Shown piece after piece: positions 933-38,155 of a DNA stretch of 64,000 bases. The DNA comes from Burkholderiales bacterium (GTDB lineage Bacteria; Pseudomonadota; Gammaproteobacteria; Burkholderiales; Burkholderiaceae_C), in contig JACPUE010000056.1 in NCBI GenBank assembly GCA_016192425.1, forward strand, positions 1-64,000. Reading direction: 5' to 3'. The translations under genes and the position numbers were made by a program. The notes below the pieces were generated by a model, which made no database searches, was not told the origin of the DNA, and saw nothing but the letters and a program-made list of their open reading frames with translations. Position 1 is the first letter of the stretch. Each line of letters begins with the position of its first letter.

Positions 933-1970
933 TTGAATCAGCGACAACTTGATCTGCCAGGGCTATTGGCCGAAGCCGACGACGCAGACGACGGCGGAGC
1001 ACAAGCGCACGTACATGACCGGGGGGAGCTCCACGTGCACATCAACGGTGCCATTCCTTTGTCTACCATCCAGGAGATCATGGCTGACGAAGCAACGTCG
1101 CTTCCGGTTGGGTTCGATTTTGAGCAAGACATGATCCGCCTAGCACCGTGTACATCGCTGGCTGAATATCTCACACCCTGGCAGGTGCTGCGTCTCTTTC
1201 CCAAGAAGCGCGCGAACCTTGATCGCCTCGCCAATGCTGTTCTGGCGAGCTTGGCAGAACACGCCGTGCGTTTTGTTGAGCTTCGCAGCAGTGTTCTGTA
1301 TCTGACCGGACTTCAGAACTGCACGCCGGCGCAGGCATTAGAACGCCTCATTGAATCCACCGGCAGCGCGGCACAACTCCACGGAATCCAGCGGGGCTTA
1401 ATCCTCACTGTGACGCGAGGCGACTACGGTGCTTCCAATCTCGCCACCCTCTTGCAGGCCTACGAGAACCTCGGACGGCCGAAGGATGTCGTGGGGATCG
1501 ACCTTGCCGGGGATGAAGAGATGCCCTACTCGGCTGAGCTGCCCGCGATGATCCGTGAGGCCAAGGACCGGTACGGCTTAGGCATCACTATCCACGCCGG
1601 AGAGACTGGCCGCGTGGAGAACGTACGCGCGGCCGTGGATCTCTTCCACGCAGATCGGATCGGCCATGGTACGGCCGCTGGCAAGGATCCGTATCTGCTG
1701 GACCTGCTGGCTGCCAAGGGGGTTTGCGTCGAGATCTGCCCGGTCAGCAACCGGCTCACGGGCGCGGTTCCCCGTGATGAGGCCCACCCTCTACAGGAGT
1801 TCCGACGCCACGGCGTGCCGTTCGTGATTTGCTCCGACAACCCCGCAATCCACCAACGCGGCTTGGCAGACGACCAGGCTACCGCCATGGCTGAAGGCTT
1901 GTCCATCCGCGACATGCGGCAGCAGTACGAAGTCGCAAAACGCTTTTCATTCATGGAGGGGTTGAATTGA
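933..1970 (+). CDS. Adenosine deaminase-family protein, KomA-like (Kongming defence)
   Basis: A 345-residue metal-dependent deaminase of the adenosine deaminase fold. All catalytic landmarks are present: the HxH zinc motif (H34, H36 in ELHVHINGA), HAGE (H221, E224), the GHG histidine (H245 in RIGHG) and the SDNP aspartate (D302). An intact active site argues for real deamination. In Kongming systems KomA is reported to deaminate dAMP to dIMP; that assignment rests on the operon context here. The start is a TTG at 933: an in-frame stop lies at 927-929, and AGGG at 922-925 gives 7-base spacing. Its stop overlaps the next start by four bases. Composition is visibly less GC-rich than the flanking genes, suggesting transfer. 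Confidence 0.8.
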   Translation: MNQRQLDLPGLLAEADDADDGGAQAHVHDRGELHVHINGAIPLSTIQEIMADEATSLPVGFDFEQDMIRLAPCTSLAEYLTPWQVLRLFPKKRANLDRLANAVLASLAEHAVRFVELRSSVLYLTGLQNCTPAQALERLIESTGSAAQLHGIQRGLILTVTRGDYGASNLATLLQAYENLGRPKDVVGIDLAGDEEMPYSAELPAMIREAKDRYGLGITIHAGETGRVENVRAAVDLFHADRIGHGTAAGKDPYLLDLLAAKGVCVEICPVSNRLTGAVPRDEAHPLQEFRRHGVPFVICSDNPAIHQRGLADDQATAMAEGLSIRDMRQQYEVAKRFSFMEGLN

Positions 1971-2527
1971 AGATTCGATTTATGTCTGGCAACAAACACA
2001 AGATCGCGGAGGTGCAACGCATCCTCACCCCGGTCGGCGTTGACATCGTGCCGGTATCCAGAAAGATCGAGGAGCTGCAAACGCAGGATGTCCACGCGCT
2101 CGTGCGAGACAAACTGATCAAGGCGTTCCAAGAAATAGGCCGCCCGTTGTTCGTTGAGCACACGGGGCTATACCTCAGCGGAATGAACGACCTCCCAGCA
2201 GGCTTGACCCAGATCTTTTGGGACCGGCTGGAAGCCAACCGCTTCGTTGACCTCGTGGCCGGCCTGGGTGATGACAAAGTCACCGCAAAGACGGTGCTTG
2301 GATACTGCGACGGGCGCGAGATGCACCTGTTCGAGGGTGCCATCGAAGGCACTGTTCCCCGTGCTCCTGTTGGCCCAGAGGACTTCCAATGGGACTGCGT
2401 CTTCATTCCCAACGGCAGCACGAAGACGTTTGCCGAGATGGGCACCGACAAGGACGCCATATCCATGCGCCGCAAAGCGCTGGACAAGTTCGCTGCCCAC
2501 CTCACAGCCACGAAAGTCATGAAATGA
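1967..2527 (+). CDS. HAM1/ITPase-fold protein, KomB-like nucleotide sensor
   Basis: A 186-residue protein of the non-canonical purine NTP pyrophosphatase (RdgB/HAM1/ITPA) family. The nucleotide-binding start SGNKHK (7-12) is intact. The usual acidic active-site motif (E-D-S/T-G-L) instead reads VEHTGL, with H65 in place of the catalytic Asp, and the usual SHRxxAL reads SMRRKAL. These changes suggest it binds inosine-type nucleotides without efficient hydrolysis, which fits a sensor subunit (inference). The start is TTG at 1967 with GGAGGGG just upstream, overlapping the previous stop (TTGA). The stop overlaps the next ATG (ATGA), so the three genes are translationally coupled. Confidence 0.78.
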   Translation: MKIRFMSGNKHKIAEVQRILTPVGVDIVPVSRKIEELQTQDVHALVRDKLIKAFQEIGRPLFVEHTGLYLSGMNDLPAGLTQIFWDRLEANRFVDLVAGLGDDKVTAKTVLGYCDGREMHLFEGAIEGTVPRAPVGPEDFQWDCVFIPNGSTKTFAEMGTDKDAISMRRKALDKFAAHLTATKVMK

Positions 2528-3318
2528 GAGCTGAGCTTCTTGACGCGCACCGCAGCGGCAAGCTGATGCTGTTTGTAGGTGCCGGCGTGTCCGCGAACCT
2601 TGGCTTGCCGAGTTGGGGCCAACTCATCGCGCACATCGCGAAGGAGCTGGGCTATGACCCGGCAGTGTTTGCCACCTATGGGAACTACCAGACCCTTGCT
2701 GAGTTTTACAAGAAGAAGAGAGGCGGACTTGGCGAGTTGAGGAGCTGGATGGACCGGGAGTGGCACAAGCCGTCCACAGACATCAAGGCTTCCGATATTC
2801 ACCGGCTGATCACTCAGGGCAACTTCTCGCGGATTTACACCACCAACTACGACCGTTGGCTTGAGATCGCACACACTGAGTTCGGCGTGAAGTACGACAA
2901 GATTGCCAGTGTGGCGGATATGGTTGCCGTTAGGGACGGTCACCGCCAGATCATCAAGTTCCATGGTGATTTCGCAGCTGACGAGTCGATCGTCCTCGAC
3001 GAGACCAGCTACTACCAACGGCTGAATTTCGATACGCCACTGGACATCAAGCTGCGCAACGACGTGTTAAGCAATTCCGTCCTCTTTGTCGGCTACAGCC
3101 TGACGGACTTCAATATCCGGCTCCTGTTCTATCGACTGACGGAGATGTGGGGTCGTTCGCCGCTGGCATCCGTCAGACCCAAGTCCTACGTCTTCACGCA
3201 CCGTCCAAACCCAGCAGCAGAGGAAGTGCTGAGGCACTGGGGCATCGAGATGATCGTGTCCGACGAGGACGATCCAAAGAAGGCGCTCACGGACTTCCTC
3301 CAAAATCTCGTGACCTAA
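2524..3318 (+). CDS. SIR2-domain NADase effector, KomC-like
   Basis: A 264-residue SIR2-family protein. Visible motifs are GAGVS (19-23) for NAD binding, TTNYD with N108, KFHGD with catalytic-type H147, and the defence-SIR2 signature GYSLTDFN (190-197). There are no zinc-finger cysteines of deacetylase sirtuins, so NAD cleavage is more likely than protein deacetylation. In Kongming, KomC is reported to act with KomB and deplete NAD when dITP accumulates during infection. The ATG at 2524 overlaps the KomB-like stop by four bases. The protein is essentially one domain, shorter than Thoeris ThsA or multi-domain DSR proteins. Confidence 0.8.
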   Translation: MRAELLDAHRSGKLMLFVGAGVSANLGLPSWGQLIAHIAKELGYDPAVFATYGNYQTLAEFYKKKRGGLGELRSWMDREWHKPSTDIKASDIHRLITQGNFSRIYTTNYDRWLEIAHTEFGVKYDKIASVADMVAVRDGHRQIIKFHGDFAADESIVLDETSYYQRLNFDTPLDIKLRNDVLSNSVLFVGYSLTDFNIRLLFYRLTEMWGRSPLASVRPKSYVFTHRPNPAAEEVLRHWGIEMIVSDEDDPKKALTDFLQNLVT

Positions 3319-3341
3319 CAAAGTCAGCAGGCTCTTCATTG

Positions 3342-3357
3342 GCGCTTCGGGAAGCGC
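3342..3357 (+). terminator. Possible hairpin terminator after the Kom-like operon
   Basis: Stem GCGCTT / AAGCGC around a CGGG tetraloop, 24 bases after the SIR2 stop, followed by an AT-rich stretch rather than a clean T run. Confidence 0.4.
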
Positions 3358-3616
3358 GTGCCTTAATTATTTAAATCCTGATGAGCAGACAGGCCTCGGC
3401 CGATAGTTATGGAGTAGCGCTGGCCATCCCTCATCTTTGGTGCAGGTCTTCTCCGCCGCTAGGTACAAATGCCCTCACGAACATGGGAGGCGGCTGTCCG
3501 TCGATTGACCGATCACGACCGAAGCAGTCGCTCAGGCCGTCGAACGCGAATGACTCCGTTCAGCCTTGAACCGTCGCTAGCACTCGCCTTCCCAGAGACG
3601 CTTGCCTACCGCCCCC
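3358..3616. other. Non-coding stretch at the right boundary of the Kom-like island
   Basis: About 260 bases with no supportable gene. Composition moves from AT-rich (around 3362-3376) back to the chromosomal level. I found no attachment-site repeat matching the left boundary by eye. Confidence 0.4.
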
Positions 3617-4318
3617 TCACCCCCGCCGCACCACAAACCTCGCAAACCGCGCCCCCAGTCGCTCCACCTGCATGGCTGTCAGCGCCCAGGCAGCAGCGCC
3701 CGGCGCGCGGCATTCCTGCAGCGCCCAGTGGGCCACGCCTGTATCGGCCAGGGTGTCGGCCAGGGCAAACAAGTCGTCCACACTGAACAGGCCCGCATGC
3801 CAGGTGGTGCGGCATTCATGGGGCACGCCGCTGGCGAGCAGGTGGCGCAACGATGCAAAGGCTTTGGCGCCGCTGCCGGGGGTGCGGGTGATGGCGTCGT
3901 AGGCGTGCAGCGGGCCTTTGATGTCCAGGCCCACCCAGTCGAGCAGGGGCAGCAGGGCTTGCAGGCGTTCGGGGTACATGCCGCCGGTGTGCAGCGCGGT
4001 TTGAAAGCCCAGGGCGCGCACTTGTGCCAGCGCGGCGGGCAAGGCGGCCTGCAGCGTGGGTTCGCCGCCGGAGAAGACGACGCCGTCGAGCAGGCCCTGG
4101 CGGCTGTGCAAGAAGGCCAGCACCTCAGGCCACGGCACGGCGGCGGGGGTGGTGGCGTCCAGCAGTTCGGGGTTGTGGCAGTAGCCGCAGCGCCAGGGGC
4201 AGCCCTGGCCATAGAGCACGGCGGCCAGGCGGCCGGGGAAGTCGATGGTGGTGAGCGGCGTGATGCCGCCGATGCGCAGGGGGTTGGCAGACAACAGGGT
4301 TTCGCTCACGGTATCCAT
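3617..4318 (-). CDS. nrdG: Anaerobic ribonucleotide reductase activating protein
   Basis: A 233-residue radical-SAM enzyme that installs the glycyl radical on class III ribonucleotide reductase. The CPWRCGYC motif (CX3CX2C) binds the 4Fe-4S cluster. FSGGEPTLQ is the following glycine-rich SAM motif, and GLDIKGP is typical of the family. The start at 4318 (MDTVSETLLSANPLRIGG) is preferred: the frame is open further upstream but reads through an interspersed repeat and lacks family similarity. It is the last gene of the nrdD operon and should be co-transcribed with its substrate. Confidence 0.9.
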   Translation of the reverse strand: MDTVSETLLSANPLRIGGITPLTTIDFPGRLAAVLYGQGCPWRCGYCHNPELLDATTPAAVPWPEVLAFLHSRQGLLDGVVFSGGEPTLQAALPAALAQVRALGFQTALHTGGMYPERLQALLPLLDWVGLDIKGPLHAYDAITRTPGSGAKAFASLRHLLASGVPHECRTTWHAGLFSVDDLFALADTLADTGVAHWALQECRAPGAAAWALTAMQVERLGARFARFVVRRG

Positions 4319-4355
4319 GGTTGAAGACGTATGCCCTTGCGCGGCCCCGGCCAGC

Positions 4356-4460
4356 GGCCACCGCGCAAGGGCCGCCCCGCCGCGCTGGTGCCGTCCCCCT
4401 TCCCGTAGTGCGAAGCACGAAGAGAGAAGGGGGAAGCGGCGCAGCCGCTCAGGGGGTTGC
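4356..4460 (-). repeat. Comamonadaceae gene-end repeat, copy 1
   Basis: A C/G-rich element containing CCACCGCGCAAGGGC, a run of CCCC blocks, an AGCGGCG-CAGCCGCT hairpin and CAGGGGG. Near-copies sit at 27728-27838, 52545-52660 (inverted) and 62684-62795. Each starts within a few bases of a gene's 3' end. The function is unknown, possibly termination or mRNA end protection. Confidence 0.7.
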
Positions 4461-4643
4461 TCACTTTTCAGCAAAGAACTGGCGCTCGTTGTGTTCGCCC
4501 TGCTTGCCGATATTGAAGCTGGCCACGGGGCGGTGGTAGCCCATGACGCGGGTCCAGACTTCGCAGGGCTGGCGCTCGGCGTCGGTGAGTTGCACGTCGG
4601 CGGCGGTGGCCAGGGCGGTGTGTTCGGTGGGGGTGTGGTGCAT
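4461..4643 (-). CDS. Separately encoded glycyl-radical tail of class III ribonucleotide reductase
   Basis: A 60-residue protein matching only the last segment of NrdD. The motif PCEVWTRVMGYHRPVASFN corresponds to the family C-terminus, so G35 is the predicted radical glycine. C27 aligns with the fourth cysteine of the NrdD zinc site. An AAGGAG Shine-Dalgarno about 6 bases before the ATG at 4643 shows it is translated on its own. It lies between nrdD and nrdG in the same orientation. The main NrdD (4743-6770) ends after the first three zinc cysteines and lacks a glycine loop, so the two polypeptides must assemble to give a working enzyme (inference). Confidence 0.8.
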   Translation of the reverse strand: MHHTPTEHTALATAADVQLTDAERQPCEVWTRVMGYHRPVASFNIGKQGEHNERQFFAEK

Positions 4644-4667
4644 GCTGATCTCCTTAGGGGTGGTTGA

Positions 4668-4725
4668 AATGCTATTAATTTGATAGCTGCTTGCGCTTAT
4701 CCAGCAAGCGATAGATGCCGTTTTT
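4668..4725 (+). repeat. Short interspersed repeat (ATGCTAT family), copy A
   Basis: Begins ATGCTATT, then TTGATAGCTGCTTGCGCTTA, then AGCAAGCG and AGATGCC. Other copies lie at 6928-6966, 15220-15275, 26999-27050, 29172-29225, 39207-39262, 45246-45312 and 52700-52757. It separates nrdD from its split-off tail gene. Confidence 0.75.
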
Positions 4726-4742
4726 GCTTGAAGTTTTCGCCA

Positions 4743-6770
4743 TCAGGCGGCCAGGCGCTCGCGCTTGGCCTGCAGGCGTTCTGCGTCGCACTGGGGGCAG
4801 AACGGGTGTTCGCCCTCCAGGTAGCCGTGCGTGGGGCAGATGGAGAAGGTGGGCGTGATGGTGATGTAGGGCAGGCGAAAGCGCGTGAGTGCGCGGCGCA
4901 CCAGCTCGCGGCAGGCGGCGCCGCTGGAGACGCGCTCACCCATGTACAGGTGCAGCACGGTGCCGCCGGTGTATTTGGTTTGCAGTTCTTCCTGGCGCGC
5001 CAGGGCTTCGAAGGGGTCGTCCGTCCAGCCTACGGGCAGTTGCGAGGAGTTGGTGTAGTACGGCTGGCTGGCCGTGCCAGCCTGGGCGATGGCGGGCCAG
5101 CGCTTTTTGTCTTCTTTGGCAAAGCGGTAGGTGGTGCCTTCGGCGGGCGTGGCCTCCAGGTTGTAGAGGTGGCCGGTTTCTTCCTGGATCTGCACGATGC
5201 GCGCGCGCACATGGTCCAGCAGGCGCACGGCAAACTGGTGGCCCTGGGGGCTGGTGATGTCGTGCGCGTCGCCGGTGAAGTTGCGCACCATTTCGTTGAT
5301 GCCGTTGACGCCCAGCGTGCTGAAGTGGTTACGCAGCGTGCCCAGGTAGCGCTTGGTGTAGGGGAACAGGCCCTGGTCCATGAGCCGCTGGATGAGCTTG
5401 CGCTTGACCTCCAGGCTTTGCTTGCCCAGCTCCAGCAGGCGGTCCAGCGCGGCGTACATGCCGGCCTCGTCGCCCGCATGCTGGTAGCCCAGGCGCGCGC
5501 AGTTGATGGTGACCACGCCCACGCTGCCCGTCTGCTCGGCACTGCCAAACAGGCCGTTGCCGCGCTTGAGCAGTTCGCGCAAATCCAGCTGCAGGCGGCA
5601 GCACATGGAGCGCACCATGTTGGGCTCCAGCTCGGAGTTCACAAAGTTCTGGAAGTACGGCAGGCCGTATTTGGCCGTCATCTCGAACAGCGCGGCGGCG
5701 TTCTCGCTCTCCCACGGAAAGTCTTTGGTGATGTTGTACGTGGGGATGGGGAAGGTGAACACGCGGCCCTTGGCGTCGCCGGTGGTCATCACGTCGATGT
5801 AGGCGCGGTTGATGAGGTCCATTTCGGCCTGCAGCTCGCCGTAGCAAAACGGCATTTCCACGCCGCCGATCACGGGCACCTGCTCGCGCAGGTCTTCGGG
5901 GCAGGTCCAGTCGAAGGTGAGGTTGGTGAAGGGGGTTTGCGTGCCCCAGCGCGAGGGCACGTTGAGGTTGTAGATCAGCTCCTGGATGCACTGGCGCACG
6001 GCGGCGTAATCCATGCCGTCCTTGCGCACAAAGGGCGCCATGTAGGTGTCGAACGACGAAAACGCCTGCGCACCCGCCCATTCGTTTTGCAACGTGCCGA
6101 GGAAGTTGACGATCTGCCCCACGGCGGAGCTCATGTGCTTGGGGGGCGCGGCCTCCACCTTGCCCGGCACGCCGTTCAGCCCCTCGTGCAAGAGCGTGCG
6201 CAGCGACCAGCCCGCGCAGTAGCCGCTGAGCATGTCGAGGTCGTGGATGTGGATGTCGCCGTTGCGGTGCGCCTCGCCGATTTCAGGGGCGTACACATGC
6301 GAGAGCCAGTAGTTGGCCGTGACCTTGCCCGCCACGTTGAGGATGAGCCCGCCCAGCGAATAGCCCTGGTTGGCGTTGGCGTTGACGCGCCAGTCGGCGC
6401 GCGTGAGGTATTCGTTGATGGAGCTTTCCACGTCCACCAGAGTCTGTTTGTCGGCGCGAAGCTGGGCGCGGCGGTCGCGGTAGGCAATGTAGGCGCGCGC
6501 GGTCTGCAGGTGGTTGGCGGCAATCAGCGTGTGCTCGACCACGTCCTGGATCTGCTCGATGCCCGGCGCCTGGCCGTGGAAGCGGTGGATCAGCACCTTG
6601 CCCACCTGGGCGGAGAGCAACTGGGCCTCGTCCGCCCCGAACTCGCCCGTGGCGGTCCCGGCGCGCTCGATGGCCGAGCGGATCTTGCGTGCATCAAAAA
6701 CGGCGCGTTGGCCGCTGCGCTTGAGCACCTCGCGGGGCAGGGTGACGGTGGTGGGGTTTGGAGGAGTCAT
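4743..6770 (-). CDS. nrdD: Anaerobic (class III) ribonucleoside-triphosphate reductase, large part
   Basis: A 675-residue class III reductase that makes dNTPs from NTPs without oxygen. An ATP-cone lies near residues 10-95 (VLKRSGQRAVFDARKI), followed by the ten-stranded barrel with NPFTNLTFD-like, SMCCRLQLDLRELLKRG and GVVTINCARLGY segments. It ends at the zinc region ICPTHGY...FCPQC, giving three of the four usual cysteines, and then stops without the RVxGY glycine loop; that part is encoded at 4461-4643. The ATG at 6770 is chosen because upstream in-frame ATGs (6803, 6812) fall in the NrdR operator. Expression is probably repressed by NrdR and higher without oxygen. Confidence 0.9.
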   Translation of the reverse strand: MTPPNPTTVTLPREVLKRSGQRAVFDARKIRSAIERAGTATGEFGADEAQLLSAQVGKVLIHRFHGQAPGIEQIQDVVEHTLIAANHLQTARAYIAYRDRRAQLRADKQTLVDVESSINEYLTRADWRVNANANQGYSLGGLILNVAGKVTANYWLSHVYAPEIGEAHRNGDIHIHDLDMLSGYCAGWSLRTLLHEGLNGVPGKVEAAPPKHMSSAVGQIVNFLGTLQNEWAGAQAFSSFDTYMAPFVRKDGMDYAAVRQCIQELIYNLNVPSRWGTQTPFTNLTFDWTCPEDLREQVPVIGGVEMPFCYGELQAEMDLINRAYIDVMTTGDAKGRVFTFPIPTYNITKDFPWESENAAALFEMTAKYGLPYFQNFVNSELEPNMVRSMCCRLQLDLRELLKRGNGLFGSAEQTGSVGVVTINCARLGYQHAGDEAGMYAALDRLLELGKQSLEVKRKLIQRLMDQGLFPYTKRYLGTLRNHFSTLGVNGINEMVRNFTGDAHDITSPQGHQFAVRLLDHVRARIVQIQEETGHLYNLEATPAEGTTYRFAKEDKKRWPAIAQAGTASQPYYTNSSQLPVGWTDDPFEALARQEELQTKYTGGTVLHLYMGERVSSGAACRELVRRALTRFRLPYITITPTFSICPTHGYLEGEHPFCPQCDAERLQAKRERLAA

Positions 6771-6783
6771 GGCGGCCTTTTGA

Positions 6784-6831
6784 ACACTACATTTAGTGCG
6801 CATGATAGCCATTAAACACTATAGGTAGTTT
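6784..6831 (-). promoter_or_regulatory. Two NrdR boxes upstream of nrdD
   Basis: ACACTACATTTAGTGC (6784-6799) and ACACTATAGGTAGTTT (6816-6831) both resemble the NrdR consensus ACACWATATATWGTGT. Their starts are 32 bases apart, three helical turns, which is the usual spacing of paired NrdR boxes. The inner box ends only 13 bases from the chosen nrdD ATG, so binding would block the promoter and start region. A degenerate FNR-like site (TTGAT-CAGG-CACAA, two mismatches) overlaps at 6830-6843. Confidence 0.75.
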
Positions 6832-6927
6832 GATCAGGCACAAACCGGGGGCCGCAGCGTTGCAGGCCGGCGGCAGGGGCACACAGCGGCAGAGCGCCTG
6901 GATATTTGGGTGTTTTTAGCGTCAAAC

Positions 6928-6966
6928 GCCCGCACATAAAGCGCAAGCAGCTATCAAAAATAGAGC
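6928..6966 (-). repeat. Short interspersed repeat (ATGCTAT family), copy B
   Basis: On the minus strand it reads GTGCTCTATTTTTGATAGCTGC then TTGCGCTTTATG. It lies 20 bases from the stop of the GGDEF-EAL gene, in the convergent space before the nrdD promoter. Confidence 0.65.
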
Positions 6967-6985
6967 ACCGTGCTCTGCAGCCCGG

Positions 6986-9900
6986 TTACGCCGTGGCGTG
7001 CTGGCGTGCAAATGCCGCGAAGGCCTCCGGCTCCAGCGGGCGGCTGTACCAGTAGCCCTGGATTTCGCCGCAGCCCAGGTCCTGCAGCAGACGGGCCTGC
7101 TCGGCCGTTTCCACGCCCTCGGCCAGCGTGGCCATGCGCAGGCTTTGTGCCATGCGGACGATGGCGGTCACGATGGCATGGTCGCTGCTCTGGTCGGCCA
7201 GTTCGCGCACAAAGGACTGGTCGATCTTGAGCTTGTCGATGGCGTAGCGCTTGAGGTAGCTCATCGACGAGTAGCCCGTGCCGAAGTCGTCCAGCGCCAC
7301 GCGCAAGCCCGCCTCGTGCAGGCGGCGGATGGTGGTCTCGGCCTGCTCGGGGTATTTCAGGGCCACGGCCTCGGTCAATTCGACCTCCAGGCGCTGGGGC
7401 GACACATCCAGGCGGTGCAGCACCTGCAGCAACTCGTCCACGAACTGGGGGCGCGCAAACTGCGCGGCAGACACGTTCACGGCCACGACGATGGGCGGCA
7501 GGCCCGCCGCATCCCAGGCGCGCACCTGCAGCGCCGCAGCCTCCACCACCCAAAAGTCGATGGCCAGGATGGTGCCGCTTTGCTCGGCGATCGGGATGAA
7601 TTCGGCCGGCGACACCAGCCCCCATTGCGGATGGTGCCAGCGCAGCAGGGCCTCGGCCCCCACCAGCGCGCCGCTGCCCAGCGCGCACTGCGGCTGGTAC
7701 ACCAGACGCAGTTCGCCACGGTGCGCCGCTTCCTTGATGCTGGCGGCAATCTCCAGCGAGCGCTGCGTATGCGCCTGCATCTCGGGCGCAAAAAAGCGCA
7801 GGCCGTTGCGCCCGTCCTGCTTGACGCGGTACATGGCCACCTCGGCCGCCGACTCCAGGGCACTGGTGGTCTTGGCGTCGTCGGGATACACGGCGATGCC
7901 CGCCGACGCGCTCATCGACACCGCATGGCCGTGCACCTGCAGCGTGGTCTGCAACTGCGCCAGCGCCTCCTGCGCGATCAGCGCCACGGTCGCCTGGTCG
8001 GCCACCGGCACGATGGCGGCAAAGCTGTCGCCCGAATAGCGGGCCAGGGCGATGTGCGGCTTCAGGCTGGCGCGCAATCGGCTGGCCAGGGCCACCAGCA
8101 GTTCATCGCCCGCCGCGTGGCCCAGGGTCTCGTTCACCAGCTTGAAGTTGTCCAGGTCAAACCACAGCAAGGATACGCGCCCATGGCTGGCGCCTGCCCG
8201 GTCGATGGCCTGGGCGAGCTGCTCGTCAAACGCCTTCTTGTTGAGCAGGCCGGTCAGGGTGTCGTTGTTGGACAGCGCCTGGATGCGCTCCTGCGCCTCG
8301 CGCTGCAGGGTAATGTCTTCCTTGTGCGCAACGTAGTGCGCGACCTCGCCAAAGGCATTGCGGATGGGATAGATCGAAGCGCGCTCGGTGTAGGTCTGCC
8401 CGTTCTTGCGGCGGTTGATGAACTCGCCCTGCCAGGGCAGGCCGCTGCGCAGCTTGCCCCACATGTCTTCGTAGGTGGAGCGCGGCGTCTGGTCCGACTG
8501 CAGGATGCGGGGGTTGCGCCCCAGCACCTCTGCAGCGCTGTAGCCGCTGCCTTCGCTGAAGGCCTGGTTCACGTAGATGATGCGGGCCTGGCTGTCGGTG
8601 ATGAAGACGGCGTGGGGGCTCTGACCCAGGGCCTCGGACAGACGGTGAATCTCGGCTTCCTGGCGGCGCTGGATGGTGTGCTTCCAGATGGCTTCGGCCA
8701 GGATCTGGAGCGCCTGCACCTCCTGGGTGCCGTAGTCGGTCGCCTTGCCTGCCACACCCAACAGCATGTACACCCTGCCGCCCTCGACCACCGGCAGGCT
8801 GATGAGCCGCCGCAGCCCGCCCTGCCCCGGCGCCGTGCCGGTCTGCGGGCCGGGCTCCAGGCTGTTGAGCACCACGGCGCGCCGCTCGTGCAGGGCACGG
8901 GCCCACAAGCCCGCCTGGCCGACGGCAAGCACGCACCCCGCGGCCTCCCCCGAGCAAATGGCCTGGGTGGTGGTGCGCTGGTCGTCCTGCACGAAATGGA
9001 TGCCTGCCAGGGCGCTGCCCGTCAGGCTGCGGGCATGGTCTGCCCCCCGGCGCAGAAACGTGGTCTCGTCCTCAAGAACATCGTGCTGCTGCAGGTCCAG
9101 CAGCGCCGCGTTCAGGTGGGCCTCGAAGCGGATGCGCTCTTCCTTCTCGACCGTGGCGGTGATGTCGCGCGACAGCACCAGGTAGGTGTCGCCACTCCTG
9201 CGGGGGTCGGACTTGCGGGCCACGGCCAACTCGAAGTGGTAGGGGCCGCCAGGCAGATCCAGCGCCATGCGCTGGCCGCGGCTGGTGCCCTGGCGCTCGG
9301 CCTCGGCCAGCGCCTCCATGCAGCGGGTGGCCGCCTGCGGGGGCAGCACGGCATCGAGCCGATGGCCGATCAGGCTGGACAGGGGTGCCGCCAGCTTGCT
9401 GGCGTCCTGCGTGTGGATCGCCAGGTACACGCCCTGGCGGTCCACCTCGAACAGCATGTCGGGCAGGGTGCTGAGCGTGGCGCGCTGGCCCGCCTCGGAG
9501 GCCTGCAGGTCCTGGTAGGGCATCTGCACCGTCTCGACAAACAGGCCCCGGCACAGAAAGCCGTAGGCCAGGATCTTGTAGAGATGGCCCGCGATGTTGT
9601 ACACATCATTGACGTTGGCGTAGAGCGTGAAGAAGTACTCGCTCATGGCCATGGTGAACGAAGCCAGCGCCAGCCACTCGGTGCCGGATTCGCCGGCCTG
9701 GCGCAGGCGCAGCAGGAAGCCGACACCTGCCAGAACGTAGAGCGCTATCAGTGCATATTCAAAACGCACCTTGAAGGGCGTCAGCCCGGAACCGGGCAGG
9801 AAGGTACGCGGCACCCATTGCGACTGCAGGAGCAGCACGTAGTGCACCGCCCCCACCAGCAGCAGCAACCCCAGCAGGCCCGCGTAGCGCGACACCGTGC

Positions 9901-10384
9901 CCGCCGCCAGGTTCCAGTGCCGGGGCCAGAAGGCCGCACACAACAAGGACAGGGCGGCGAGCGACCGAGCGGGCAGCCAGAAGTTGATGGCCTTTTCCGG
10001 GCCGCTGGGCGTGACAAAGTCCGGCATGCCCGCGTAGGACAGGCTGTGGCTCAGGTCCAGCATGCCCACGCCCAGCAGGCCCAGGCCCAGCACCAGGGCG
10101 CGGCCGTTGGTGCGGTATTTCTGCGTGACCCAGGAGATGCCGAACACCATGGCCACCACGGCGATGGCCACCACCTCCATGGCCGTGTGCAGCGGCACGT
10201 AACCGGCCACACCCCGGGCCGCATCGGGCGCCGGAAGCACCTTCACCAAGCCCAGACTGCCCAGCAGCAGCAGGAACCAAAGCAGCGACTGGCGGGACTT
10301 GGCACGGTGGGCGGGGTGGATCATCTCCAGGGGCCTATGGGTGAGACGTTCCGCCGCGCCGTGGGCACGCGTGGCGAAAAACAT
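6986..10384 (-). CDS. Membrane MASE-PAS-GAF-PAS-GGDEF-EAL protein, probable c-di-GMP phosphodiesterase
   Basis: An 1132-residue signalling protein. Residues about 30-260 carry seven or eight membrane helices (MASE3-like), then PAS (285-405), GAF (410-565), PAS (575-695, ending in HKEDIT), GGDEF (700-870) and EAL (880-1125). The cyclase signature is degenerate (YSGDSF instead of GGDEF), so cyclase activity is unlikely. The EAL domain keeps EALLRW, ELTE, DDFGTGYS, KIDQSFV and EGVET and should hydrolyse c-di-GMP. The ATG at 10384 is preferred because the frame upstream runs through the terminator at 10462-10493. An alternative start is 10324. The input signal is unknown; the NO genes upstream may be only neighbours. 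Confidence 0.85.
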   Translation of the reverse strand: MFFATRAHGAAERLTHRPLEMIHPAHRAKSRQSLLWFLLLLGSLGLVKVLPAPDAARGVAGYVPLHTAMEVVAIAVVAMVFGISWVTQKYRTNGRALVLGLGLLGVGMLDLSHSLSYAGMPDFVTPSGPEKAINFWLPARSLAALSLLCAAFWPRHWNLAAGTVSRYAGLLGLLLLVGAVHYVLLLQSQWVPRTFLPGSGLTPFKVRFEYALIALYVLAGVGFLLRLRQAGESGTEWLALASFTMAMSEYFFTLYANVNDVYNIAGHLYKILAYGFLCRGLFVETVQMPYQDLQASEAGQRATLSTLPDMLFEVDRQGVYLAIHTQDASKLAAPLSSLIGHRLDAVLPPQAATRCMEALAEAERQGTSRGQRMALDLPGGPYHFELAVARKSDPRRSGDTYLVLSRDITATVEKEERIRFEAHLNAALLDLQQHDVLEDETTFLRRGADHARSLTGSALAGIHFVQDDQRTTTQAICSGEAAGCVLAVGQAGLWARALHERRAVVLNSLEPGPQTGTAPGQGGLRRLISLPVVEGGRVYMLLGVAGKATDYGTQEVQALQILAEAIWKHTIQRRQEAEIHRLSEALGQSPHAVFITDSQARIIYVNQAFSEGSGYSAAEVLGRNPRILQSDQTPRSTYEDMWGKLRSGLPWQGEFINRRKNGQTYTERASIYPIRNAFGEVAHYVAHKEDITLQREAQERIQALSNNDTLTGLLNKKAFDEQLAQAIDRAGASHGRVSLLWFDLDNFKLVNETLGHAAGDELLVALASRLRASLKPHIALARYSGDSFAAIVPVADQATVALIAQEALAQLQTTLQVHGHAVSMSASAGIAVYPDDAKTTSALESAAEVAMYRVKQDGRNGLRFFAPEMQAHTQRSLEIAASIKEAAHRGELRLVYQPQCALGSGALVGAEALLRWHHPQWGLVSPAEFIPIAEQSGTILAIDFWVVEAAALQVRAWDAAGLPPIVVAVNVSAAQFARPQFVDELLQVLHRLDVSPQRLEVELTEAVALKYPEQAETTIRRLHEAGLRVALDDFGTGYSSMSYLKRYAIDKLKIDQSFVRELADQSSDHAIVTAIVRMAQSLRMATLAEGVETAEQARLLQDLGCGEIQGYWYSRPLEPEAFAAFARQHATA

Positions 10385-34838: not shown

Positions 34839-35074
34839 GGACAACAGGGTGGGATGGGCGCTTGCGCACAAAATTGCGGCAAGTGTACCGTGCTGCCGCC
34901 CGAGCCTGCAGCCCGAGCACCGGGCGCGGGCCTGGCCTTCCATGAACAGCCCAGCAGATACAGCGATACAAATAGAAACACTGTTTTTACATCGACGATG
35001 TTTCAATCGCTGTGCGCGCCACGGCCCCCAGCGGACTGCGGGCGCGTCACTCGTTTTCATGAAAGATGTTTGAG

Positions 35075-36592
35075 ATGACCTCTAGTGCCAGTTTGATCCC
35101 CGCGCGATTACGCGCCATGAACCCTTTGCGCACCGCTGCAGCCCTGGGCTGCGCCCTGGTGGCCCTGGCGGGCTGCGGCGGGGGCTCTGACGATGCGGCG
35201 CAGCCGCCAACAACCACCCTTGCAGCGCCCACCAACTTTTCGGTGACCAAGCTCGGCGTCTTTCGCTGGAATGTCACACCCGGCGCCACCCGCTATGAGC
35301 TGTATGTGGACCCGGACGGCGCTGGCCCACTGGCAGAGGCCAAGGCAAACGACTTCGACCAGGCCACCGGCACCGGTTTCAGGTATTCACTGGAGGCGAT
35401 TCAATGGTTTTCCGGCGACCTCAACGCACCCGTCTCTGCGACCAGCCTGGCAGCCAGCCTTAACGCCTCCTACCGGCTGCGGGCGTGCGATGCCAGCGGT
35501 TGCGGCGCCTTCACCGATCCCAAGACGTATGACATTGTCAACGCCGTCAGTCACGAGTTCAGCTCAGGACGCGCTCCCAACAAGTACATCTACAGCTTGG
35601 ACGTCTCCCCACGACTCTCCAAGGACGGCCTGACGCTGGCCATGGGCCAGCCCAGCGCCGGTGACGACGGCGCTGTCTACGTTTTCACGCGCGACAGCAG
35701 CACCCAGCCTTGGCAACCCCATGCGGTACTGCGCTCCGGCAAGGGCTCCTTTGGAGCGCAGATCGAGCTATCCGCCGACGGCAGCACCCTGGCCACAACA
35801 GGCAAGCTGACCTCTGCCAGCGATGCCAACGCACTCGCGGACGTGGCATACCTCTACCAGCGCAGTGGCAGCTCCTGGAACCTGCAAGCCACTTTGGAAG
35901 CACCCGCCGCACCATCGGCATGCCCACAGCCCTGCTTTGCCGGACACGTCGGCCATTTGGCGCTCTCTGCCAATGGCAGCCTGCTTGCCACCTCGCGGAA
36001 ATTCAGCACCGCCCCAGGCGTGGGCTCCACATCCATGGGCACCGTGGTGACGTACACGCGCAGCGGTGCCACCTGGTCGCAACAAGCCGTGCTGGAAACG
36101 GGCGGCAAGTCTGTGGAACTCTTGGCCTTGTCGGGAGACGGCAAAACCCTGGCGGTGAATCAAGGCGCGGAATCCCTCAGCACACCCTCCACCGACATGA
36201 CCGCTGCCCTGGTCTATGCCCAGCAAAGCGACAACACCTGGAGCCAGCAAGCCCGCATTCCCGTCGGCCTTGTTCATCTGGTGACCCTTGGAGCCAGCAC
36301 GCTCAGCAGCATGGAACTGTCTGTCGACGGGAACACCCTGGCCATCCTCGCGAGAAATTCACCTGGGTATCAGCCCCCAGAACTCGATGTCAAGCCCACA
36401 GATCTCTCGTGCGGCCCGATGGTGGGTAGCTTGTACATGGCACTGTATTCGCGCACTGGCAGCGCCTGGCAACGGCAAGCCGCCATCTCGCGCGCAAAGG
36501 CAGACATCTGGGCGCTGGCCCGCGATGGCAATGCCCTGTTCTACGGCAACACGCTGTTCACGCGCAGCAACGGCGCCTGGGCTTGCCCTTGA
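35075..36592 (+). CDS. FG-GAP/propeller lipoprotein, tandem paralogue 1
   Basis: A 505-residue predicted lipoprotein: lipobox ALAGCGGG, an FN3-like domain (about 50-150: FRWNVTPGATRYELYVDPDG, RLRACDASGCGAFT), then repeating units of LSADGSTLATTG and VAYLYQRSGSSWNLQATLE type, as in FG-GAP_2 beta-propellers. The start at 35075 is chosen because MTSSASLIPARLRAMNPLR aligns residue for residue with the start of the next gene; 35066 and 35117 are alternatives. Probably surface-exposed binding; function unknown. It shares near-identical ends with 36695-38155. Confidence 0.75.
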   Translation: MTSSASLIPARLRAMNPLRTAAALGCALVALAGCGGGSDDAAQPPTTTLAAPTNFSVTKLGVFRWNVTPGATRYELYVDPDGAGPLAEAKANDFDQATGTGFRYSLEAIQWFSGDLNAPVSATSLAASLNASYRLRACDASGCGAFTDPKTYDIVNAVSHEFSSGRAPNKYIYSLDVSPRLSKDGLTLAMGQPSAGDDGAVYVFTRDSSTQPWQPHAVLRSGKGSFGAQIELSADGSTLATTGKLTSASDANALADVAYLYQRSGSSWNLQATLEAPAAPSACPQPCFAGHVGHLALSANGSLLATSRKFSTAPGVGSTSMGTVVTYTRSGATWSQQAVLETGGKSVELLALSGDGKTLAVNQGAESLSTPSTDMTAALVYAQQSDNTWSQQARIPVGLVHLVTLGASTLSSMELSVDGNTLAILARNSPGYQPPELDVKPTDLSCGPMVGSLYMALYSRTGSAWQRQAAISRAKADIWALARDGNALFYGNTLFTRSNGAWACP

Positions 36593-36694
36593 TCGGCTGA
36601 TCTACGTCTTGCAGCGGCATCCCGTCCGGGGTGCCGTGGCTGTAGGGTGGGCATTTTGCACACACAAGATTTTGAACAAAGGATGCCATTGAAG

Positions 36695-38155
36695 ATGGTT
36701 ACCACGCCCGTTTTGATCCCCGCGCGACTGCGCGCCATGAACCCTTTGCGCGCCGCTGCAGCCCTGGGCTGCGCCCTGGTGGCCCTGGCGGGCTGCGGCG
36801 GGGGCTCTGATGACACGGCGCCGCCACCCGCGCCCGGCCTCGCGGCCCCCACGAACTTCACGTTTGAATTGAACTTCCGATGGACCGCCACGCCTGGCGC
36901 CACCCGCTACGAACTGCATGTGGACCCCGACGGCCCCGGCCCGCTGCCTGAAACCAAGGCTGCCGACGGCACCAACGACGACTGGAGGGGCTTCAGGTAC
37001 CAGCCCAGGGGTTCGCAGGGGTTCACCGGAACCTTCTACGACGCCAGCACCGATGCGCTAAACTTGGCTACGCGTATCAACGCCACTTACCGACTGCGTG
37101 CGTGCGATGCCAATGGATGCGGCACCTTTACCGCACCCATCGTCAATGAACCCAGCTACGAATTCCCTTCCGGAAGGGTACCAATCTTCCATTCGCAGTC
37201 CAAAGACGGTCTCACTCTCGCTATCGGGCAGCCCAGCGCCGATGCAGACTCCACCGTAGCAGTCTTCACACGCAGCAGCAGTGCTCATCCATGGCAGCTG
37301 CACGCCGTGCTGCGTTCCGGCAATGCTCAGTTCGGGGTCAACCTGGCGCTGTCTGACGACGGCAACACCCTGGCCATCCATGAACCTGTACCAGCCCAGG
37401 GTGACCTAACCCCTTACAGGACACGTTCTTACATCTACCAGCGCAGCGGCAATACCTGGATCCAGCAAGCCTCACTCGAACCCAGCAACCTCCCCGCGGC
37501 CTGCCAGCCGCCATGCGCAGCGTCTGGCAATAAACTGGCACTGTCCGCCGACGGCAGCTTGCTCGTTGAGTCGATCAATTTCTACTCGCAAGCCACACGC
37601 AAGTACATGGGTGCTGTCGTGATTTACGCTCGCAGCGGCACGACCTGGTCCCAACAGGCCTTGTTAGAAACCGGCGACAAATCCGCCGACATCATGGCCC
37701 TGGCACGTGATGGCAAGACCTTGGCGGTGAACCAAGGGGCCCAATACCGTAGCGAGAGCGTTCCATCCTTCGCCCTGGTCTTCACCCAGCAAAGCAACGG
37801 GATCTGGAGCCAGCAAGCCAGCATCCCAGTGGGTATCTGGTACTTCATGGACATTGCGGCAGGTGCTTACAGCAGCATGCAACTGTCCGACGACGGCAAC
37901 ACCCTGGCTGTCTTGGCGTCGAATGGGGCAGAAGACCGTGCTATCCATGCCGCCGATCTCTCGTGCGGCGCCCTGTCGAAGGATGGCTATTACATGGCAT
38001 TGTTTACCCGCAACGGCACGGCATGGCAGCGTCAAGCCGCGATCTCGCGCGGTTACGACAGCGCTTCCATGTGGGCGCTGGCCCGCGATGGCAATGCCCT
38101 GCTCTACGGCAACGAGATCTTCACGCGCAGCAACGGCGCCTGGGCTTGCCCTTGA
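36695..38155 (+). CDS. FG-GAP/propeller lipoprotein, tandem paralogue 2
   Basis: A 486-residue paralogue of the preceding gene, with the same order: lipobox ALAGCGGG, FN3-like domain (FRWTATPGATRYELHVDPDG), then propeller repeats (LSDDGNTLAIHE, YIYQRSGNTWIQQASLE, VVIYARSGTTWSQQALLE). The signal-peptide region and the last 30 residues (ALARDGNALLYGNEIFTRSN) are almost identical to paralogue 1 while the centre has diverged. The start at 36695 (MVTTPVLIPARLRAMNPLR) is set by alignment. Confidence 0.75.
   Translation: MVTTPVLIPARLRAMNPLRAAAALGCALVALAGCGGGSDDTAPPPAPGLAAPTNFTFELNFRWTATPGATRYELHVDPDGPGPLPETKAADGTNDDWRGFRYQPRGSQGFTGTFYDASTDALNLATRINATYRLRACDANGCGTFTAPIVNEPSYEFPSGRVPIFHSQSKDGLTLAIGQPSADADSTVAVFTRSSSAHPWQLHAVLRSGNAQFGVNLALSDDGNTLAIHEPVPAQGDLTPYRTRSYIYQRSGNTWIQQASLEPSNLPAACQPPCAASGNKLALSADGSLLVESINFYSQATRKYMGAVVIYARSGTTWSQQALLETGDKSADIMALARDGKTLAVNQGAQYRSESVPSFALVFTQQSNGIWSQQASIPVGIWYFMDIAAGAYSSMQLSDDGNTLAVLASNGAEDRAIHAADLSCGALSKDGYYMALFTRNGTAWQRQAAISRGYDSASMWALARDGNALLYGNEIFTRSNGAWACP

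Follow-up and report, generated by a model that had tools for sequence, protein, structure and literature searches.

A very probable complete Kongming operon of a Burkholderiales genome, apparently acquired horizontally, at a variable site downstream of nrdG

Gene layout and integrity of the operon

Three overlapping genes, whose products belong to the Pfam families A_deaminase (KomA-like, 1.8e-49), Ham1p_like (KomB-like, 7.6e-34) and SIR2_2 (KomC-like, 1.2e-24), lie near the start of the analyzed DNA, a stretch of 64,000 nucleotides referred to here as the window (Table 1). The original prediction, made from the sequence alone, had described three genes overlapping by four bases each in a segment of lower GC content, and both points were borne out. 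The open reading frames and the TTGA and ATGA overlaps were confirmed, and in 500-base windows the GC content of the operon is 0.56-0.62, compared with 0.61-0.71 at positions 3501-10000. The GC3 values of komA, komB and komC (0.69, 0.74 and 0.75, respectively) are also below the range of 0.85-0.95 found in 13 other open reading frames of our own choice within the window.

Table 1. Positions of the operon, its features and the neighboring genes in the window
Feature	Position	Strand	Remarks
TPP-dependent enzyme, N-terminal part	1-474	minus	flank
Upstream stretch, probable leader/promoter region	850-932	plus	conserved with the L013 and L017 operons (BLASTN)
komA-like gene, adenosine deaminase fold	933-1970	plus	345 aa, TTG start
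TTGA, komA/komB stop/start overlap	1967-1970	plus	4 bases
komB-like gene, HAM1 fold, proposed dITP sensor	1967-2527	plus	186 aa, TTG start
ATGA, komB/komC stop/start overlap	2524-2527	plus	4 bases
komC-like gene, SIR2 NADase family	2524-3318	plus	264 aa, ATG start
nrdG-like radical SAM gene	3617-4474	minus	flank
NrdD gene	4743-6812	minus	flank

The assigned starts of komA and komB are credible for three reasons. An in-frame TGA at 927-929 makes position 933 the earliest possible start of komA; the ribosome-binding-like sequences AGGGA (922-926) and GGAGGGG (1955-1961) stand 5-6 nt before the two TTG codons; and the KomA N-terminus MNQRQLDLPG is common to close relatives, in which the TTG start is mostly kept. 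The BLASTN alignment of the window with the related loci L013 and L017 begins at position 850.

The Kom genes of the window are under purifying selection, with dN/dS ratios of 0.038-0.133 against four relatives (0.123 for komA, 0.095 for komB and 0.046 for komC in the comparison with L013). It is very unlikely that the operon is a decayed or silent, non-working copy residing on an island. A scan for sigma-70 type promoters upstream of the operon returned 0 sites (shuffled mean 1.0), and one related locus, L019 from Chitinimonas, is indeed decayed, with stops in its KomA fragments; in the window, however, all three frames are open and constrained, and neither the start codons nor the overlaps nor the ribosome-binding-like sequences are damaged.

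Elsewhere in the window (35066-38155), two adjoining open reading frames of approximately 500 aa, neither of which has a Pfam match, have in common an almost identical lipoprotein-like segment close to the start of each. This pair is a probable tandem duplication.

Relationship of the three proteins to Kongming and housekeeping enzymes

The closest solved structures to the window KomC and KomB are Kongming proteins. KomC showed the best PDB match to KomC 8zsf (8e-102), followed by two further KomC chains, and KomB to KomB 8zsg (3.6e-67), whereas the next distinct match of each protein was to entry 9v0g (its SIR2 protein at 2.4e-43 and its HAM1 protein at 1.9e-25). His147 of the window KomC aligns with the catalytic His146 of the solved KomC, which is mutated to Asn in 9xvc. 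SIR2_2 is the only Pfam domain of this protein and, unlike in ThsA with its SIR2 and sensing domains, no second domain was found in it.

KomA was not named among the 38 PDB matches of the window's deaminase, and a reference operon was therefore sought. The viral-contig locus L093 (4464-6789) encodes KomB and KomC proteins identical over their full length to the solved Kongming PDB chains, and the deaminase upstream was taken as the reference KomA because it adjoins them. By our reading, the neighbors of this locus resemble phage replication and lysis genes. The window proteins share 43% (KomA, over 321 aa), 53% (KomB, over 179 aa) and 57% (KomC, over 260 aa) sequence identity with this reference. 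The KomA alignment scores 302 bits, compared with 104 bits and 32% identity for the alignment with E. coli Add.

KomA and KomB were also compared with their housekeeping counterparts in phylogenetic trees from which identical sequences had been dropped. In the tree of 45 deaminases, for which the program issued long-branch warnings, all 24 distinct KomA rows grouped together across a 100/99 branch from the 21 others, which comprised 14 of the 44 locus deaminases, 6 plasmid-annotated adenosine deaminases and one RdrB-like fragment. The tree of 56 HAM1 proteins contained 12 of 29 RdgB proteins, 22 distinct rows from KomABC loci and 22 chosen rows from loci with KomB and KomC only, and its 44 Kom rows were split from the RdgB proteins at 100/100. 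The window KomA is below the NCBIfam equivalog cut-off for Add (171.4 vs 216.55 bits), and KomB is below both RdgB cut-offs (96.7 vs 145.35 and 129.9 vs 203 bits).

The sequence motifs of the two proteins follow the same division. The window KomA keeps HxH, HAGETG, RIGHG and SDNP, and in KomB the motifs EHTG and SMR occupy the positions of DD[AS]G and SHR of RdgB. In motif counts that include many near relatives and are not independent, SDNP was present in 25/25 KomA rows and [ST]DDP in 44 of 45 other deaminases, EHTG or EHSG in 86/86 KomB-like rows and S-M-R or S-N-R in 83 of these 86 (the pattern missed the other three), with DD[AS]G and SHR in 29/29 RdgB proteins. The one exceptional deaminase has TDNP and lies in an 880-residue frame of a sister genome (L132, G018), which we take to resemble RdrB of the RADAR system. 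The general base of RdgB is the acid replaced in KomB, and the exchange of this acid and of the histidine would fit a sensor that does not hydrolyze its ligand.

A model of the window KomA generated using AlphaFold2 (mean pLDDT 89.8) shows a deaminase barrel preceded by residues 1-25 with values below 50, which are predicted to be disordered. Among solved structures, the model is closest to bacterial Add enzymes and also resembles Cad1; a search of a viral structure library gave one match under 0.001.

These Add-like folds and the generic nature of the Pfam families A_deaminase and Ham1p_like would suit a nucleotide-salvage or pool-cleaning operon, in which a housekeeping-type deaminase and an RdgB-type pyrophosphatase have a SIR2 gene as a chance neighbor. 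We assign this explanation a near-negligible probability, since neither protein groups with the housekeeping clades or reaches the equivalog cut-offs, the RdgB signatures are replaced and the gene order is conserved together with KomC. Moreover, the host genome already encodes its own RdgB on contig C11 and another deaminase on contig C42, presumably an adenine deaminase as judged by its motifs.

The original prediction had equated the combination of deaminase, HAM1 and SIR2 genes with the composition of the Kongming system, and had named a placement of the first two among housekeeping Add and RdgB as evidence that would count against it. The comparisons agree with that assignment: KomB and KomC match the solved proteins far above any other protein, KomA groups with the reference, and cut-offs, motifs and trees all separate the deaminase and the HAM1 protein from Add and RdgB. 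The operon is a new betaproteobacterial member of Kongming, a system that has already been published.

According to two papers (PMC12948488, PMC12774641), KomA, host Ndk and a deoxynucleotide kinase of the phage together convert dAMP to dITP, which activates KomBC and leads to NAD depletion; the mechanism given in the original prediction is in agreement with this. By homology, the window KomA would deaminate dAMP to dIMP upon phage infection, and dIMP would be phosphorylated to dITP by two kinases, a deoxynucleotide kinase of the phage and nucleoside diphosphate kinase of the host, whose genome contains a gene for the latter (PF00334, 2.9e-55). KomB, with its HAM1 fold and altered hydrolase signature, would then bind dITP and turn on the SIR2 NADase KomC, so that NAD would be depleted and phage growth stopped. 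We infer both these biochemical steps and the anti-phage effect of the window operon from the relationship to the reference system. As a diverged member (43-57% identity to the reference), the operon is well suited to asking which residues set dITP specificity.

Genomic setting, origin and distribution

The contig starts at base 1 of the window, and the left side of the site is seen only to that point. Among eight regions beside nrdG taken from the window's genus, the nrdG side matches in all eight and the window's left flank also in four (L184, L186, L188 and L191); two of the regions stop at a contig end. The proteins of four regions were searched against families, and the other four regions carry different open reading frames. 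The four searched sisters encode an ImmA/IrrE-type protein (weakly RmrA-like) with a DUF4411 protein (G022), an AAA_15 ATPase at a contig end (G023), an AAA_13 ATPase matching PDC-S06, also at a contig end (G006), and a CBS-domain gene with a DUF2971 gene matching PDC-S31 (G003). Given these differing contents, the site downstream of nrdG (3319-3616 in the window; L184-L187) is variable in the genus, with defence-like genes in the four sisters searched.

By KomC identity, the closest relatives of the operon are found in Aquabacterium (98%, a locus truncated by the contig end), Paenacidovorax caeni (97%), Methylibium (95%) and Stenotrophomonas nematodicola (93%), and the Stenotrophomonas locus makes Kongming appear to move between classes. 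The Paenacidovorax locus has a tyrosine integrase approximately 1.5 kb from the operon. From such sequence comparisons, the operon of the window was probably acquired horizontally. The cassette is enclosed by an imperfect direct repeat of 15 nt (at 851-865 and 3381-3395), which was considered as a mobile-element boundary, but no such pair (up to 2 mismatches) was present in eight other loci, including L013 and L017, and the repeat is therefore probably due to chance.

We regard it as highly probable that the window carries a complete, horizontally acquired Kongming operon at a variable site downstream of nrdG, with a mechanism deduced by homology.

Strong KomC matches are sparse in the surroundings of the host. 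Among the genomes of 60 relatives, they were found only in the window's own genome and in G040 from the same order, which has KomC without KomB in the stretch examined, and the 25 other genomes of the window's genus gave no strong KomC match. In the host family, which appears to include Paenacidovorax caeni, 10 of 299 genomes, counting that of the window, gave a strong match to KomC. The other nine comprise two with KomABC (L223 and L224), three with KomBC in which KomA was not found and four with KomC in which KomB was not found. L223 seems to be the same locus as L013 of Paenacidovorax, since the contig number and coordinates agree.

A broader, KomC-anchored scan of a genome collection gave 211 confirmed loci, of which the best 80 were evaluated by tblastn and recovery of open reading frames. 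Absence of co-occurrence of the three genes had been named beforehand as an argument against the Kongming assignment; instead, ordered KomABC was identified in 18 of these best 80 loci, in five of ten loci from viral contigs (the other five being distant SIR2 genes) and on a Vibrio plasmid, where an HTH gene accompanies it. The overlap between komA and komB is four bases in all 24 other KomABC loci measured, and that between komB and komC is four bases in 55 of 85 other pairs. KomC-like SIR2 genes for which no KomB or KomA was found alongside were also observed (L008-L010, L104 and L234-L237; 45-57% identity to the window KomC).

In 59 of the best 80 loci of the 211, KomB and KomC are present without an intact KomA, so that KomBC is not always accompanied by KomA and KomABC is outnumbered by the two-gene form in this KomC-anchored scan. 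Full KomB is missing in three of the 80 (L024, L049 and L025, the last of which starts close to the end of a contig). These KomA-less pairs, the least expected result of the analysis, lie outside the window and leave the Kongming verdict unchanged. They come mainly from Pantoea, Mixta, Erwinia and Stutzerimonas (59 of the loci L013-L092, together with L003 and L004).

A KomA profile was searched in 17 genomes with KomBC only (seven Erwiniaceae, one Pseudomonas, one Rahnella and eight Stutzerimonas/Pseudomonas, of unstated completeness). In 16 of them it found one distant deaminase each, at 4.3e-31 or weaker, and in Rahnella none; the same profile gave 1.2e-164 and 1.3e-167 in two KomABC genomes. 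In the KomB tree, the Erwiniaceae rows without KomA nest within the KomABC rows (100/98), which suggests loss of KomA in Erwiniaceae, and the Stutzerimonas rows branch outside. The KomA-less pairs keep the sensor signature residues, and ten pairs of such loci have dN/dS ratios of 0.003-0.094 over both genes, with some dS values above 1 and saturated, which points to strong purifying selection on the pairs tested.

Recurring gene families lie at fixed distances beside the KomBC-only loci, as expected for a conserved position, and no nucleotide enzyme was recognized among the example neighbor sequences inspected. A YebG-like gene is located downstream of KomC on the same strand, at a median distance of approximately 100 bp, in 22 of 39 Pantoea-type loci (4901-5251 in L003). 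Among the titles listed in a literature search, none dealt with KomBC without KomA.

It is conceivable, and we propose it tentatively as a reading that falls short of even chances, that KomBC is the core sensor-effector and KomA an optional signal maker, with the KomA-less pairs reading dITP or another deaminated purine triphosphate. Their signal would then have a different origin, for instance chemical deamination or an enzyme of the phage, and the operon of the window would be a KomA-equipped, mobile form. In any case, the KomA-less pairs make the function of the sensor-effector without its own signal maker directly testable.

The commonness of these pairs, the existence of a related HAM1-SIR2 complex (the 9v0g series) and the modest identity of KomA to the reference (43%) would favor an alternative in which the window operon derives from Kongming with its architecture unchanged but, through drift of KomA or KomB, responds to something other than dITP, perhaps ITP or a further deaminated purine triphosphate. 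This alternative has only a slim chance of being correct, as the window and the reference both retain the catalytic and signature residues, and the KomA and KomB rows group with the reference in the trees.

Comparison with known defence systems

A second HAM1-SIR2 complex is present in the PDB (9v0g, 9v0y, 9v0z, 9v12, 9v2k, 9v2m and 9v57). Like Kom, it combines a HAM1 protein that has EH in place of DD with a SIR2 protein in the same entries, but its similarity to the window proteins is far lower than that of Kongming (1.9e-25 for HAM1 and 2.4e-43 for SIR2), and these entries are absent from the 38 PDB matches of the window KomA. Literature searches by the codes 9v0g, 9v12 and 9v57 gave no name or paper for this complex, and searches by 8zsg, 8zsf and 9xvc returned no relevant paper.

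Individual domains are shared with other defence systems. The effectors of Thoeris (ThsA) and the Dsr proteins have the SIR2 NADase domain of the window KomC, but are approximately 476-1005 residues long in the PDB matches, compared with 264 aa for KomC. The CARF-ADA protein (Cad1) of type III CRISPR systems shares a defence-linked adenosine deaminase domain with the window KomA and was its sole match in PADLOC (2.4e-35); this match spans positions 328-582 of the 605-position CARF-ADA profile, and the window protein lacks the CARF part. The absence of a Kongming match in PADLOC is uninformative, because the reference proteins gave none either: with the 2023 copy, reference KomA matched only CARF-ADA, KomB matched nothing, and KomC matched ThsA and other SIR2 models.

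The closest correspondence is with the Kongming reference itself (L093; 8zsf, 8zsg, 8zsh, 8zsi and 9xvc). The window and the reference have the same gene order and a komA/komB overlap of four bases, and share the EHTG and SMR motifs of KomB, the equivalent of His146 in KomC, and HAGETG and SDNP in KomA. They differ in the komB/komC overlap (four bases in the window and one in L093) and in the N-terminus of KomA, which is unrelated in the two proteins, the start of the reference being uncertain (326 or 342 aa). In contrast to the reference, which is located on a phage-like contig, the operon of the window occupies a site of chromosomal type, downstream of nrdG, in a betaproteobacterium.
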